Shown piece after piece: positions 4,005 through 29,713 of a stretch of DNA of 36,222 nucleotides. Source of the DNA: a virus; IMG/VR virus record IMGVR_UViG_3300048833_000310, positions 1-36,222 of that record, one strand, 5' to 3'. A program made the translations under genes and the position numbers. The notes below the pieces were generated by a model that worked only from the letters and a program-made list of their open reading frames with translations, was not told the origin of the DNA and searched no databases. Position 1 is the stretch's first letter, and each line of letters opens with the position of its first letter.

Positions 4005-4889
4005 TTAGTCGATCCGTCCGAGGATGCGGAAAGTCGCCCCCTCGGCCGGCGCCGAGGGCCAGGCCACGGCGAACGTGAAGGCCCGCGTCGACCCGGTGTA
4101 GGAGGTGATCCGCCGGGCCAGGCCGTCGAGGGCCCCGCTCGTGAACATCAGGACCGACCCGGCATAGTGTGTGTCGTTGGAGGAGAGCGCCGACGAGCCG
4201 GCGAAGACGGTGGCCGAGGGGACGGGGCTCGCGGCGACCGCGTCGGCGGCGGTCGCGAACTCATTGGCCACGGCCGACGCGATCGAGGCGGCCGAGGGGA
4301 TGTCCGTCGCGGCGGCCGGGTTGGCCGGGAGGGCGTTGACCTTGGCCAGGATCGCGGCGATCTCCGTGTCGATCAGCCCGGAGATCGTCGAGAGCGTGGT
4401 GATGATCGTGGCGATCTCGGTGTCGATGTACCCGGAGATCGTGGCCTGGCTCGCCGCCGTCGCGTAGCCCGCCGAGGCCAGCGTCCGGGCCTCCATCTCG
4501 GCGTTGGTCGGGGGGTCGTAGGCGGCCAGGGCCGAGGCGGCCTGGGCGAGGACCCCGGCGGCATCGACGGTCGACCGCGAGCCGACCGTGGCGTCGAGGT
4601 TCTCGATCCCCGCCCGGCCGACCGACCAAAGCGCCGGCACGTGCTGCTCATCGACCGTCGTGTCCGTCGTCTTGAAGACCGCCTTGTACTCGCCAACGGT
4701 CGCGGTCGACCCGGACGCGAGAGTGTACTCGTAGAAGCCGCCCCCGACAGCCGTCGCCGACCCGGCGGTGACGACGAGCGTATTGGCCACGTTGTACACG
4801 TCGCAAGTGACGGTCAGGCCGGTCTTCCCCTGCCTGGCGCTGCGGAAGAAGGCGTAGAACGTGATCGAGTTGGAGATTTGCTCGATCAT
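4005..4889 (-). CDS. Virion structural protein with Ig-like N-domain and coiled coil
   Basis: 294 residues from MIEQISNSITFYAFF; AAGGGA stands eight bases upstream of this ATG. Residues about 15-100 form a beta-rich domain (GLTVTCDVYNVANTLVV ... GEYKAVFKTTD). Residues about 130-215 are low-complexity alpha-helix with a repeated phrase (ISGYIDTEIATI, then ISGLIDTEIAAI), as in a trimeric coiled coil. Residues about 240-294 are again beta-rich. Such beta-coil-beta layouts are typical of phage fibres and baseplate or neck appendages. Placed in the head-tail joining region, it may be a neck fibre. Confidence 0.55.
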   Translation of the reverse strand: MIEQISNSITFYAFFRSARQGKTGLTVTCDVYNVANTLVVTAGSATAVGGGFYEYTLASGSTATVGEYKAVFKTTDTTVDEQHVPALWSVGRAGIENLDATVGSRSTVDAAGVLAQAASALAAYDPPTNAEMEARTLASAGYATAASQATISGYIDTEIATIITTLSTISGLIDTEIAAILAKVNALPANPAAATDIPSAASIASAVANEFATAADAVAASPVPSATVFAGSSALSSNDTHYAGSVLMFTSGALDGLARRITSYTGSTRAFTFAVAWPSAPAEGATFRILGRID

Positions 4890-6960: not shown

Positions 6961-7884
6961 TCAGGTGGAGACGAGGTAGCTGCCGAAGTTGGGCCGGACC
7001 ACGGCCAGGGCGTAGACCGCGTGGACGTGGAGGATCCAGCCCTGCTGGTCGCCCGAGTACCAGAACTGGATCCGGTAGGTGAGGCCCGAGCCGGGGACCT
7101 GGTAGGAGGTCTCGCGGACCTGCGACTTGTCGCCCATCGGCAGGGTGACGGGCACCAGGGCGATGGCGTGCTTGTTGAAGAAGAGGCCCGCGTAGGTCGA
7201 CCCGGCCGAGGGCTGGGGGACCATCGGGTCGTAGTCGATCTGGGCGCCGTAGGCTGGCATCAGCCGGGCCGTCTGCTGGGCCAGCTCGGCGGCGTTGATG
7301 CCGACCACCGATTCGGAGATGAAGCTCGAATCGGAGATCATGTTCGCGTAGGGGACGTGCCCCGTCACGAAATGCAGGTCGCCCGGCGTGGTGGGGACGC
7401 CGATCCCGACGAGATTCGACCAGGCCGTGCCGAGGTTGGCCCGGCTGAAGGTGTCCGCGCCCCCGGTGATGGAGCTGTGGACGTTGAAGTTGGTCGAGGT
7501 GATCAGGTTCGCGATCGACCGGTTGATCTTCCGGGTCACCGCCTCGATCGCGGGCTCCAGGTAGAGCGTCCGCAGGTCGGCCGGGGTGAGGGCCTGGTCG
7601 AAATCCGGGATCTTGAACGCCTTCGACTTGTTGTTGTTGACCGTCATGGGGACGGTCGTGTGGTCCTGGTCGGTGATCTGGATCGGGCCGTTGCCGATGT
7701 CGATCACGTCCCCCTCGTTGACGGTGGGGATGTTCGCGTTGATCGTCTTCCCGACCCGGCCGGCGACCGGCTGGGGCTGGACGTAGACCTTGCGGACCAG
7801 GCTGTTGCGGAGCATGAGAGGCGACTGGAGCGCGGCGGCGGCCGGCAAAACCAGCGTCTCGAAGAGGCCCGTGGTGGTATTCAC
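6961..7884 (-). CDS. Major capsid protein, P22-coat-like
   Basis: 307 residues with a GTG start (MNTTTGLFETLVLPAAAALQ). The N-terminal helix, then RNSLVRKVYVQPQPVAGRVGKTINANIP and a loop with VTVNNNKSKAFKIPDFDQALTPADL, match the general plan of P22 coat-type HK97-fold capsid proteins: an arm, then a beta segment containing NNN-K, then a conserved helix starting about residue 103 (LRTLYLEPAIEAVTRKINRSIANLI). It follows the scaffold gene directly, as expected. There is no sign of a proteolytic delta domain, consistent with a separate scaffold. It forms the head shell. Confidence 0.8.
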   Translation of the reverse strand: MNTTTGLFETLVLPAAAALQSPLMLRNSLVRKVYVQPQPVAGRVGKTINANIPTVNEGDVIDIGNGPIQITDQDHTTVPMTVNNNKSKAFKIPDFDQALTPADLRTLYLEPAIEAVTRKINRSIANLITSTNFNVHSSITGGADTFSRANLGTAWSNLVGIGVPTTPGDLHFVTGHVPYANMISDSSFISESVVGINAAELAQQTARLMPAYGAQIDYDPMVPQPSAGSTYAGLFFNKHAIALVPVTLPMGDKSQVRETSYQVPGSGLTYRIQFWYSGDQQGWILHVHAVYALAVVRPNFGSYLVST

Positions 7885-7902
7885 GGCTTGTCAGCCTTCA
7901 AC

Positions 7903-8499
7903 TCAGCCCTCGACGCGGACGGCGTTGCCTTTGGCGAACGCTTCGACCAGATCGGGGCGAGCCTGCTGCCATCCCGGGCGGGTGACCTCGTCATCCCGAT
8001 ACTCGACCCGGCTGACAGGGGGGGTGGATGCGCTCCTCCCCGAGCCCGGCGGCGGTGCCGTGGGCGGCGTCCCCTGCTTGCCCTGGGGGGGCGTCGAGGG
8101 GCTGGACGCGAAGGCCCAGGGGTCGGCCTCCTTCGCCGCGTCCAGGGCGGCGTGGAAGTCCTCGGGCTTCGCCGGGGCGTCCCCTGGGGCGAGGTCGAGG
8201 ATCTTGTACAGCTTGTCCGCGTCCTTCGCGTTCGCCCCCTTGGCGATCGCGGCGGCGCGGAAGGTGTCCCGGTGGGCGACGGCCGCGAGCTTCGCGTTCG
8301 CCTCGGCGAGCTGCCGGGCGAGGTCGGAATCGGGGGCCGCCTTCGCCTTCGTGGGCTCGGGCGGGTCGGGCTCGGGGGCGGCCTTGCGGGCCTTGATCCG
8401 GGCCTGCTTGAGGGCCTGGCTCAGGTTCTCGGCCCGCCGCTCGGCCTTCAGTCGCGCGGCGGTGAGATCGTCCAGGAAGGATTGGGTGACTTCGGGCAT
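7903..8499 (-). CDS. Capsid scaffolding protein
   Basis: 198 residues, highly charged and helical. An N-terminal coiled coil (residues 8-45, LTAARLKAERRAENLSQALK) is followed by DLARQLAEANAKLAAVA near residue 60 and a Pro/Gly/Ser-rich disordered stretch at about 130-165. The C-terminus is short (WQQARPDLVEAFAKG). This is the usual composition of scaffolding proteins of the Gp20/P22 kind, and its position between portal and capsid genes is canonical. GAGG lies eight bases upstream of the ATG. It is expected inside procapsids and to leave before DNA packaging. Confidence 0.72.
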   Translation of the reverse strand: MPEVTQSFLDDLTAARLKAERRAENLSQALKQARIKARKAAPEPDPPEPTKAKAAPDSDLARQLAEANAKLAAVAHRDTFRAAAIAKGANAKDADKLYKILDLAPGDAPAKPEDFHAALDAAKEADPWAFASSPSTPPQGKQGTPPTAPPPGSGRSASTPPVSRVEYRDDEVTRPGWQQARPDLVEAFAKGNAVRVEG

Positions 8500-8561
8500 G
8501 GCGGCGGGCCTCGGGCTCCGGGTTCAACGTGGGTGCGCGTGGGTGGGGCGGGTCGGCCAGC

Positions 8562-8876: not shown

Positions 8877-10417
8877 TCCTCGGTTTTGGTCTCGGTCTCG
8901 TCGCCGGTCTCGGGCGTCTCGTCGTCGCCCTTCTCTGGTTCCGTGGCGGGCTGGGCGGCCCCCATGAGGGCGGCCCAGGCGCGTTGCCGCTCGGCGATCT
9001 GGGGGGCCATCGCGATCGCGGCCTGGATCGTGGTCCCCCGCAGGCGGGCGAGGCCCTCGAACCCGTCCGTCATCCCCAGCTCCATCTCGCGGGCGAGGGT
9101 GTCGAGGCCCTCGACGCTGGAGGAGTCGACGACCCGGGGCTCGGGCCAGAGGCAGAGGAGCTTCGGCTCGGCGGCGGCGGCCGTCGCGGCCCCGGCCAGC
9201 TCCCAGCCGGCGGCCCCGTACCAGAGGCCGGCGACGGCCAGGCTCACCGCGGCGAGGTCGGTCTCGGTCTCGGCGAAGTCGAGCTGCCGGCCCCGCGTGC
9301 GCTGGACCAGCGGGGCCGCCTTCTTCTCCAGGGCGATGCCAGAGAACTCGGGGGCCGAGTCGGTCCGGACGACGGTGAGGGGGACCTCCAGCTCCTCCAG
9401 GGCCTGGTCGACCGAGGTCTTCAGGTCATACCAGGCGGCCTCGACCCCGAGCTGGGCCTGGAGGAGCCCCAGCTCGGGGGTGATCCCGTTGTCGCCGGCC
9501 TTCGCGGTGGGGTCGGTGGGGAGGTGCAGGAAGCGGCCGACCTGCTTGCGGAGCCTGGCCGACGCGGGCATGCCCCGGGCCCAGCCCCACGGGTTGAGGA
9601 ACTCCTCGACATGCTGGGCGAGGTTCGAAAGCTCGCGGTCGGCGGCGATGTTGCACTCGCGGAGCGGGTTGCCGAGGCCCCCCTCCCAGAAATCCGTCTC
9701 GGCCGGCTCGTTCCGCACGAACACGAACGGGAGGACGCCCGGGTAGGGGGAATCCCCTTCCTCGACCAGCTTCGCCACGCGCTTGCCGGCCGTGTCGTCG
9801 AGGCCCCAGGGCTTCGTGAGGTAGGTGTGGCGTTCGTAGGCCGACCAGAGCCGGTAGCGGGTGACGAGCTTGCCCGGGGCGTCCTTGCCGGCCGGGATCC
9901 GCTCGATCGTGCAGATCGCCCAGGGGTTGATCGGGTCGCCGTCGCGGGTGAAGACGGCGAACTCGTGCCCCTTCCAGAGCCAGTAGCGCAGGGGGCGGGC
10001 CGGGTTGCCCGTGGCCTCGACCTGGATGGCCGCGACATGGTTGAGCGTGGCGGCCCGGTCGGCCGAGCGGAGCCGGGTGTTGACCGCCCCGCCCTTGTAC
10101 GCGATCTCCAGCCAGGCCGAGAGGGCGTCATCGCCCTGGAGGACGCGCGTCGGGCCCGGGTTGTACAGCGGCTCGGCCAGCTTCCGGACGACGGTCCGGG
10201 TGATCCTCGAGTACCGCTTCGGCCGGTCCTCGAACTCCTCCTCGGTCTCGTCGGGCCGGCGCTCGAGGTGGGTGCAGTTGCGGAACTGGTAGAAGTCCTC
10301 ATTGGCCAGGGCGTCGGCCAGCCGCTTCCGCTCTTCCGGCAGGCCGTCGCGCACGGAATCCCCCACCTCCCGCAGGGAGGGGACCGACTCGCGATCGGGG
10401 AAGAGGTCGGCTGGCAT
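8873..10417 (-). CDS. Portal protein
   Basis: 514 residues. The sequence has the length and helix pattern of siphovirus portals: an early helical region with ANEDFYQFRNCTHL and FEDRPKRYSRITRTVVRKLAEPLY, a wing domain (YRLWSAYERHTYLTK), then a long stem-crown helix near residues 290-340 (ELGLLQAQLGVEAAWYDLKTSVDQALEELEVP). The C-terminus is acidic and disordered (EPEKGDDETPETGDE). It lies between TerL plus one small gene and the scaffold, the canonical order. As a dodecamer it forms the DNA channel at one capsid vertex. Its ATG overlaps the previous stop by one base (TGATG). Confidence 0.8.
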   Translation of the reverse strand: MPADLFPDRESVPSLREVGDSVRDGLPEERKRLADALANEDFYQFRNCTHLERRPDETEEEFEDRPKRYSRITRTVVRKLAEPLYNPGPTRVLQGDDALSAWLEIAYKGGAVNTRLRSADRAATLNHVAAIQVEATGNPARPLRYWLWKGHEFAVFTRDGDPINPWAICTIERIPAGKDAPGKLVTRYRLWSAYERHTYLTKPWGLDDTAGKRVAKLVEEGDSPYPGVLPFVFVRNEPAETDFWEGGLGNPLRECNIAADRELSNLAQHVEEFLNPWGWARGMPASARLRKQVGRFLHLPTDPTAKAGDNGITPELGLLQAQLGVEAAWYDLKTSVDQALEELEVPLTVVRTDSAPEFSGIALEKKAAPLVQRTRGRQLDFAETETDLAAVSLAVAGLWYGAAGWELAGAATAAAAEPKLLCLWPEPRVVDSSSVEGLDTLAREMELGMTDGFEGLARLRGTTIQAAIAMAPQIAERQRAWAALMGAAQPATEPEKGDDETPETGDETETKTEE

Positions 10418-23897: not shown

Positions 23898-23925
23898 ACT
23901 ATAGCAGGACGCCCGAGGAAAGCAA
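23898..23925 (-). promoter_or_regulatory. Sigma-70-like promoter, minus strand
   Basis: On the minus strand: TTGCTT (23925-23920), 16 bases, TATAGT (23903-23898). It points at the ribbon-helix-helix gene, leaving an untranslated leader of about 80 bases. Confidence 0.55.
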
Positions 23926-23952
23926 TCCGATTGGTAGCAGAAATATCTAGTT

Positions 23953-23977
23953 GCCAGTTGACTAGGTACTGACTGGC
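23953..23977. promoter_or_regulatory. Operator candidate GCCAGT-N13-ACTGGC
   Basis: Inverted repeat GCCAGT (23953-23958) and ACTGGC (23972-23977) that overlaps the -35 box and spacer of the early plus promoter. A repressor bound here would block RNA polymerase. Confidence 0.45.
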
Positions 23978-23985
23978 GGTATTAT
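23958..23985 (+). promoter_or_regulatory. Sigma-70-like early promoter, plus strand
   Basis: TTGACT, 16 bases, TATTAT; the best consensus promoter seen in the window. It faces the plus-strand operon starting at 24090 and would give a leader of about 95 bases. Confidence 0.65.
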
Positions 23986-24089
23986 GTGTATGTCGGCCGG
24001 GCGAACGTCGCTCGACTAACGAAGTGGGGCCGGCGAGTGACGCAATCACTCCCGGCCCCTGGGAACCCACCCTCTTGAGGCTCGTTCCA

Positions 24090-28264: not shown

Positions 28265-28570
28265 TCACTCGCCTTCGCTGCCGATATTCTCAACGTCGGC
28301 GGCAAGGTCAGCCTTCTCGCCACGGCCGGCCTCGGCCTTGTCGCGGTCGGTCACGACGAACCGCTGGGGCACCCGGCGAATCGCCTTCTCGACAACGGCC
28401 GACTGGGTCGACTTCGTCATGGCGGCTTCGATCCGGACGATCTCAGCCGTCTTCGGGGTGAGGTAGACAGTCACCTTCTCCAGCTTGGCGGCCTCGGTCT
28501 TTGCCGGCTTGGAGGCGCGACGGCGAGGGGCTTTGGTCTCGGAGACGGCGGGGGCGGCGGCTGGCATCAT
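28265..28570 (-). CDS. Ribbon-helix-helix-like protein
   Basis: 101 residues; MMPAAAPAVSETK is chosen as the start because GGAG is eight bases upstream, whereas the ATG at 28648 lacks one. After a basic disordered part (APRRRASKPAKTEAAK) comes LEKVTVYLTPKTAEIVRIEAAMTKSTQSAVVEKAIRRV, a strand-helix-helix pattern like ribbon-helix-helix DNA-binding proteins. The tail is acidic. It is convergent with the early operon and enclosed by two plus-strand terminators. Confidence 0.55.
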   Translation of the reverse strand: MMPAAAPAVSETKAPRRRASKPAKTEAAKLEKVTVYLTPKTAEIVRIEAAMTKSTQSAVVEKAIRRVPQRFVVTDRDKAEAGRGEKADLAADVENIGSEGE

Positions 28571-28602
28571 GGACTGTTCTCCGGTTGCATCCGGGGGCGA
28601 TA

Positions 28603-28642
28603 GGGCCGGGGGTGGTGAGAACACCCCCGGCCCTTTCTTTTT
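28603..28642 (+). terminator. Second plus-strand intrinsic terminator
   Basis: Perfect 12-bp stem (GGGCCGGGGGTG with CACCCCCGGCCC), seven-base loop, then TTTCTTTTT. It lies just upstream of the minus-strand ribbon-helix-helix gene and probably catches readthrough from the early operon before it enters the csrA and sigma genes. Confidence 0.8.
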
Positions 28643-28723: not shown

Positions 28724-28963
28724 TCACCCGGCGACGGGATGGCCGAGCGTCCCGGCCTCCAGGGGAGGGGGCGTCGGGTCGGCCACCGGGGCGTGGCGTT
28801 CCGGGCGCCGGATCTCGAAGTTGCGGTCGGGGTCGTCGAAGGCGATGTTGACCCGGCCGGGTTCTCCGGCGGTGATGCCGTAGATCCGGAGCCGGAAGAC
28901 ATCCCCCGAGGCCGGGTGGGTGATGTCGACCCACTGGCCCTCTCTGCGTTTCAGGACAAGCAT
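28724..28963 (-). CDS. csrA: CsrA-like RNA-binding translational regulator
   Basis: 79 residues. The N-terminus MLVLKRREGQ matches CsrA (Leu4, Arg6, Arg7, Gly9); then DVFRLRIYGI, RVNIAFDDP, NFEIRRPER with Arg53 in the place of the conserved RNA-binding Arg44. The body spans about 56 residues and the remaining 23 are a Pro-rich tail. CsrA dimers bind GGA in mRNA leaders and block or stabilise messages. GAGGA precedes its ATG. It follows the sigma gene by 39 bases. Key binding residues are kept, so it is probably active. Confidence 0.8.
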   Translation of the reverse strand: MLVLKRREGQWVDITHPASGDVFRLRIYGITAGEPGRVNIAFDDPDRNFEIRRPERHAPVADPTPPPLEAGTLGHPVAG

Positions 28964-29002
28964 CGGCGGTTCCTCTCGCGTTGCGTTGCGTGGTCGGGAT
29001 CG

Positions 29003-29602
29003 TCAGTTCGATAGGGCGGGGGAGCCGGGCCGCTGGCCGGCCCAGGTGCCTTGGAGCATCGCGATGGCTTCCTGGTGGATGTAGGTGACACGGCTGGGGG
29101 AGAGCCCGACCGATTTCGCGGCCTGGGCGTGGGTCTCGCCCCATATGTAGATCCGCCGGAGCGCGGCGGCGTGGCCGGGGGGGAGCTTGCGGAGCCACCC
29201 CTCGACCGCGTCCTCCTCCTCCAGGCCCCACCCGGGCTCGGGCTCGGGCTCGATCCCCAGGACCCGGCCGTCCAGCTCGTCGTCGTGCCGCAGGTCGCCC
29301 AGGTGGGCCGGCTCGGCCCCGTCGCGGGCCAGCCGCTTCCTCGCCCACCGCTGCCGGCTCACGTCCTTCAGGGCGCCCCAGATCCGCTTCTTCGCGAAGA
29401 AGCTGAACGAGGTCCCGACCTGGGGCCGCCACGCCTCGGCGGCCTCGACCAGGGCCATGTTCGCCGCGCTCTCGTACTCCTCCCAATGGGCGGGGGCGAT
29501 CCGCTTCAGGGGTTTTGCCATCTTCCTGGCCATGGGCCTGTATCGGGCGGCGAGCCGCTGCTGGTCCGGGGTGAGCGGCTCGCGGGTTCGGCGGGTGGCC
29601 AT
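29003..29602 (-). CDS. Sigma-70-family RNA polymerase sigma factor
   Basis: 199 residues with regions 2 and 4 only. Region 2 (about 41-90): EYESAANMALVEAAEAWRPQVGTSFSFFAKKRIWGALKDVSRQ, the core-binding and -10 recognition helices. An acidic linker follows (EPEPEPGWGLEEEDAV), then region 4 (about 135-184): LPPGHAAALRRIYIWGETHAQAAKSVGLSPSRVTYIHQEAIAML, the -35-binding HTH. The group 3/FliA-like size and its place beside the tail genes suggest it directs late transcription. It heads a unit with csrA. Confidence 0.88.
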   Translation of the reverse strand: MATRRTREPLTPDQQRLAARYRPMARKMAKPLKRIAPAHWEEYESAANMALVEAAEAWRPQVGTSFSFFAKKRIWGALKDVSRQRWARKRLARDGAEPAHLGDLRHDDELDGRVLGIEPEPEPGWGLEEEDAVEGWLRKLPPGHAAALRRIYIWGETHAQAAKSVGLSPSRVTYIHQEAIAMLQGTWAGQRPGSPALSN

Positions 29603-29637: not shown

Positions 29638-29676
29638 TGCGACGTTAAAACTATTCTGCCATCATAACGCGACGTT
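29638..29676. promoter_or_regulatory. Sigma-factor promoter with repeated operator-like motif
   Basis: On the minus strand TATGAT (29666-29661) is a -10 candidate ahead of the sigma gene. GCGACGTT occurs at 29639-29646 (within TGCGACGTTAAA) and at 29669-29676, 30 bases apart, on either side of it. The 12-mer also occurs, reversed, at 22897-22908. On the plus strand TATAAC at 29687-29692 may serve the small lipoprotein-like gene. Confidence 0.45.
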
Positions 29677-29713
29677 GGCGGGTGTTTATAACTACGAAGA
29701 GGGGGGGCCGGGG

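Follow-up and report, generated by a model that had tools for sequence, protein, structure and literature searches.

A phage-borne pair of sigma factor and putative CsrA-family genes with a chromosomal counterpart in Isosphaeraceae

The gene pair and its signals

The window, that is, the whole stretch of DNA analysed here, is a 36.2-kb virus record with 70% GC. On its minus strand a gene for a sigma-70 family factor of 199 amino acids, with regions 2 and 4 only (29003-29602; Pfam, TIGR02937), is followed by a gene for a putative divergent CsrA-family protein of 79 amino acids (28724-28963), assigned from profiles and homologues. The two are separated on the same strand by a 39-base spacer (28964-29002) that carries the ribosome-binding site GAGAGGAACCGCCG before the csrA-like ATG, with one GGA inside. 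Both frames, their order, the strand and the 39 bases between them are present as described in an earlier account made from the letters alone (the sequence-only reading), and its claim that a phage carries a CsrA-family gene beside a sigma gene is borne out by both open reading frames and by homology.

Upstream of the pair, on the same strand, lies a candidate sigma-70-type promoter, TAAACA-16-TATGAT (29661-29688), recognised by its match to the consensus; the window has few AT-rich spots, and the site is located in one of them; one such site was found against 0.0 expected in shuffled sequences. Promoter patterns of the FliA and SigB types, which may not be those that this sigma reads, are absent from the window. 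Behind the csrA-like gene there is a strong GC-rich hairpin (28602-28634, strand not assigned), in which the T-run needed for a terminator sits on the plus strand while the pair is on the minus strand. Further downstream, a minus-strand frame from the ATG at 28570 (28265-28570) encodes a weak ribbon-helix-helix protein of CopG type (RHH_1, 16 bits, below cut-off), and no homologue of it adjoins the other sigma-csrA-like pairs. Because the gap is short, no terminator lies between the genes and a single promoter-like site precedes them, it is plausible that both are read in one transcript. With its own promoter-like site, the 39-base spacer and the hairpin behind, the pair could form a moron-like unit, complete in itself and open to reading by host RNA polymerase. 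Purifying selection appears to act on the product, since between phage and host genes (window against L164) dN is well below dS (0.17 vs 0.79, the dS value being rough at this GC content).

The phage and its host

The window encodes a terminase large subunit, a major head protein, a tail tube protein and a D5-type primase, together with a serine recombinase, a DNA methyltransferase, ERF and Gp157, and on these grounds it is a real tailed phage; it is probably temperate and the record is possibly incomplete. No tRNA was found in the window, and no Rfam family matched it, CsrB/RsmZ-like RNAs included. The top plasmid relatives of the primase are from Singulisphaera acidiphila and Planctomyces sp. 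SH-PL62, which indicates Isosphaeraceae; the virus infects planctomycete bacteria of this family. An AT-rich stretch at 23901-24000 contains promoter-like sites on both strands, TTGACT-16-TATTAT (plus) and TTGCTT-16-TATAGT (minus), and is probably a divergent early control region.

A divergent member of the CsrA family

Taken alone, the 79-residue protein reaches only 14.4 bits (E 0.038) with PF02599, whose curated cut-off is 27, so that from the single sequence the assignment to CsrA is unproven. It had no match in NCBIfam or PHROG, and a sequence search of the PDB gave chance matches only. An AlphaFold monomer computed from just two sequences has three strands and a pLDDT of 59, too poor for a fold search. 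The family as a whole is more informative. PF02599 was matched by 16 of its 18 members (E up to 1, best 5.1e-5), and the window protein is connected to CsrA, through intermediate sequences, by 17 homologues from hosts and prophages (40-59% identity). When the family profile was run against 26,402 open reading frames, the next-ranked sequences formed a CsrA-like chain (L239, L240, L241, L242, L245), after which canonical host CsrA was recovered at the edge of noise. Profile-profile comparison by hhalign with canonical Isosphaeraceae CsrA covered residues 1-56, the whole core, with P 7e-5 and a probability of 62.6%, against 0.1% for an unrelated control in the same comparison. In the alignment with E. 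coli CsrA, positions M1, L2, L4, R6, R53 and E55 are invariant; the first four keep their numbers, and R53 and E55 correspond to E. coli R44 and E46. From the PF02599 matches of the members, the profile-profile result, the intermediate chain and the invariant positions we conclude that the protein is a divergent member of the CsrA family.

R44 of E. coli CsrA has been reported as essential for RNA binding (PMC7366521). The proposal that RNA-binding residues are retained therefore stands for L4, R6 and R53 (the R44 position), all invariant, while the motif given for it, LxxRR, is really LxRR (L4-K5-R6-R7). With CsrA/RsmA the window protein shares its small size, the MLVL-x-R start, the core length, the invariant arginine at the R44 position and the existence of phage-borne alleles. 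It differs in scoring below the cut-off as a single sequence, in having LAFDD in place of the central GINAP-like stretch, in a GQW, H16 and RPER signature proper to its family, in the pairing of its gene with a sigma factor and in the restriction of strong host-genome matches to Isosphaeraceae. Canonical CsrA above the Pfam cut-off is also present in all 45 host genomes.

The sequence-only reading had further argued that most ribosome-binding sites hold the GGA that CsrA recognises. This is roughly correct, GGA occurring in the ribosome-binding region of 23 of 37 chosen starts in the window against a background of 26%; as an argument for CsrA action it lacks specificity, GGA being part of Shine-Dalgarno sites, which had in part guided the choice of starts. 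Likewise, all 19 leaders of the subfamily have a GGA within 15 bases of the start codon, which fits autoregulation of the csrA-like gene and would be given as well by any Shine-Dalgarno site.

The sigma factor

The description of the neighbouring protein as a two-region sigma factor was confirmed. Region 2 scored 25.4 bits with Pfam Sigma70_r2 (cut-off 24), region 4 scored 22.5 bits with Sigma70_r4, just under its cut-off, and TIGR02937 of NCBIfam was passed with 44.4 bits (cut-off 42.9). The nearest relatives of region 2 are the FliA/WhiG and SigB/F types, and the likeness to FliA/WhiG and SigB/F/G (TIGR02479, TIGR02980) in this region includes the FxTFARxRIxGALRD stretch of the family consensus. 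The window sigma nevertheless falls far below the subfamily cut-offs and has no region 3; with the FliA/WhiG model TIGR02479 it reached 39.8 of the 189.6 bits required, through region 2 only. Its identity with host chromosomal sigmas is 38-55%. The sigma factor on the Singulisphaera plasmid pSINAC02 is unrelated to it.

The chromosomal counterpart

In Isosphaeraceae, the family to which Paludisphaera soli (G001) belongs, 45 genomes were covered, and the window csrA has 17 clear homologues there, with 50-68% local identity. The window sigma has matches in 40 of the 45 genomes, some of which reflect general sigma-factor similarity only. When 398 genomes of the class were compared, only those Isosphaeraceae genomes matched the csrA-like family strongly. 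Flanking genes and gene clustering define a syntenic host locus in which clpX and mutY lie on one strand and a small coiled-coil gene (c4), the sigma gene and, at 15 loci, the csrA-like gene lie on the other; the names of genes at this locus were read off the translations without a family scan. This second group faces a gene for an aminotransferase of DegT type and frequently one that is CbiX-like. Of the 15 csrA-like genes, 13 come directly after the sigma gene. In the other two (L168 of G035 and L169 of G034) the sigma gene is gone and the csrA-like gene follows c4, and no clear relative of the sigma was found elsewhere in these two genomes. The window pair is homologous to this locus, and its two genes keep the host order on a common strand. 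Nothing in the window matches c4.

Several further observations concern the chromosomal unit. c4 matches no Pfam family; c4-like genes lie beside sigma in prophage L161 (12432-12716) and element L222 (9350-9685), and another is present in virus L225 (11448-11744), apart from its csrA-like gene. The regions upstream of the host c4/sigma units (L157, L160, L162, L165, L167, L205-L207) appear to contain -35 boxes of TTGAC type, and in several host genomes an ATCCCG...CGGGAT palindrome, absent from the phage copy, occupies the promoter spacer before the -10 box, which suggests a repressor site. In L163 (host G049) the sigma frame carries a premature TAA (9181-9249 onward), through either decay or sequencing error, with the downstream csrA-like gene intact.

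A tree of 34 sigmas, three of them from phages or elements (window, L161, L222), falls into two sides separated with support of 95/96. One contains 12 hosts with a csrA-like gene, the window, L161, L222 and one host without a csrA-like gene; the other contains 18 hosts with sigma only. From this supported split, the presence of a CsrA-like partner is seen to follow sigma lineage. The window sigma groups with that of L161 and with the host sigmas of G048, G047 and G050 (93/90, just under the strict threshold). The phage sigma branches are long (0.88-1.32), and hence their promoter choice may have drifted from that of the host. In the tree of the csrA-like genes (64 columns), support is too poor to place the phage genes.

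Copies in other phages and prophages

A search for the sigma-CsrA pair in other genomes, proposed with the sequence-only reading, found it again in two prophages in addition to the 13 host chromosomal loci. Prophage L161 (G048), with portal, TerL and capsid identified by Pfam, has the csrA-like and sigma genes 1.7 kb apart; in prophage L173 (G051), which has tail-type genes, about 20 bases at the end of sigma are shared with the csrA-like gene. The chromosomal pair is present as well in each of these two genomes. Element L222 (G005) has the c4-like gene and sigma only. In virus records L225 and L249 and prophage contig L174, a csrA-like gene is present and no related sigma occurs in the sequence searched, so that in these phages the csrA-like gene alone is as common as the pair. 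A sigma-like match in the L225 record proved to be an HTH/HNH protein. Relatives both degenerate and unlinked from sigma had been named as evidence against the proposal: unlinked relatives do exist (L168, L169, L225, L249, L174), and none of them is degenerate.

The copy in L174, a prophage contig of G041, is a divergent csrA-like gene with a GTG start (about 4356-4553; L239 1477-1674) that overlaps the end of a terS-like frame just before terL. Virus record L250 has a FliA-like small sigma adjoining terminase-like frames (7857-8522), and no csrA-like gene within the 16 kb fetched. The window csrA, sigma, TerL and primase, each used on its own as a pattern against IMG/VR, gave no match, nor did a csrA pattern scan of genome contigs. 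In tblastn searches of INPHARED phages and PLSDB plasmids, csrA gave chance-level matches only and sigma was unmatched in phages.

Discussion

The sequence-only reading proposed that the two proteins could seize host transcription and translation together. Since the pair is homologous to a host locus, tuning of a host regulon is indicated at least as much as takeover. The account that we prefer, with a confidence slightly above even, is that the phage carries its own version of the Isosphaeraceae chromosomal two-gene unit and adjusts an existing host programme with it. The same two genes adjoin at a fixed place on host chromosomes, so that the virus probably taps a control circuit belonging to its host. 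Host RNA polymerase would start at the sigma-70-like promoter of the phage unit and transcribe it like a moron. The FliA/SigB-F-like sigma of the unit would then redirect the polymerase to the promoters that the host sigma controls as its regulon, and perhaps also to phage genes. The CsrA-like protein, as a dimer, would bind GGA sites in leaders, that of its own ribosome-binding site included, and would so set how far that regulon is translated, under negative feedback. The net effect would be that phage or prophage tunes an existing host programme with no shut-down of the host. A joint role is not obligatory, as csrA-like genes occur without sigma in the five unlinked cases given above.

Small sigmas near packaging-type genes in L161, L222 and L250, csrA-like genes near packaging genes in L161, L249 and L174, and the fast evolution of phage sigmas would also suit a switch internal to the phage, in which sigma activates late genes, the CsrA-like protein has phage mRNAs as its targets, as in an early-to-late control of translation, and the likeness to the host reflects ancestry and not present function. 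This is rather unlikely, as the window pair lies far from terL with its own promoter-like site, and the lack of FliA- and SigB-type patterns in the window speaks against it with the reservation made above. The two genes might instead be independent cargo, the CsrA-like protein being a stand-alone moron regulator, frequent in these phages, whose closeness to sigma was inherited from the host locus with no joint function. In favour of it are the two hosts, the two viruses and the prophage contig whose csrA-like gene stands without sigma, and also the csrA genes of other phages, for which no sigma partner has been reported (PMC7366521, PMC9144972). It is made improbable by a partner that follows the sigma tree and by two genes that have stayed adjacent in the window, in L173 and in 13 of 15 host loci. 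That the pair is a functionless passenger, acquired by chance, or decaying host DNA would explain why host-like genes stand in a phage and why some phages lost the linkage, and is very improbable indeed: both frames are intact at about 50% divergence with dN below dS, no flanking gene of the host locus accompanies the pair, and csrA-like genes occur in several different phages and prophages.

Phage-borne csrA is known, having been found in 30 of 2517 phages, about 1% (PMC7366521), and as gp47 of Burkholderia phage JC1 (PMC9144972). Sporulation-like sigmas borne by phages of Bacillota activate the host sporulation network (PMC9429907). These are likewise phage homologues of a host sigma of SigF/FliA type, proposed to act on a host programme; the present case differs in its planctomycete host, the absence of region 3 and the CsrA-family partner. 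Among the open-access papers searched, none described a sigma-CsrA pair common to host and phage, and such a shared module appears to be new. Phage csrA and host-like phage sigmas, known separately, are here paired, and the pair is also on the host chromosome.

We suggest only tentatively that a two-layer module, an alternative sigma with a CsrA-type protein, moves between planctomycete chromosomes and phages, and that in lysogens holding both copies the host switch meets competition from the phage version or is overridden by it. The two genomes with both copies make cross-talk between host and prophage directly testable. Little work has been done on the phages and alternative-sigma circuits of the planctomycete phylum, and the host locus opens the way to mapping a sigma-CsrA regulon that has yet to be studied.
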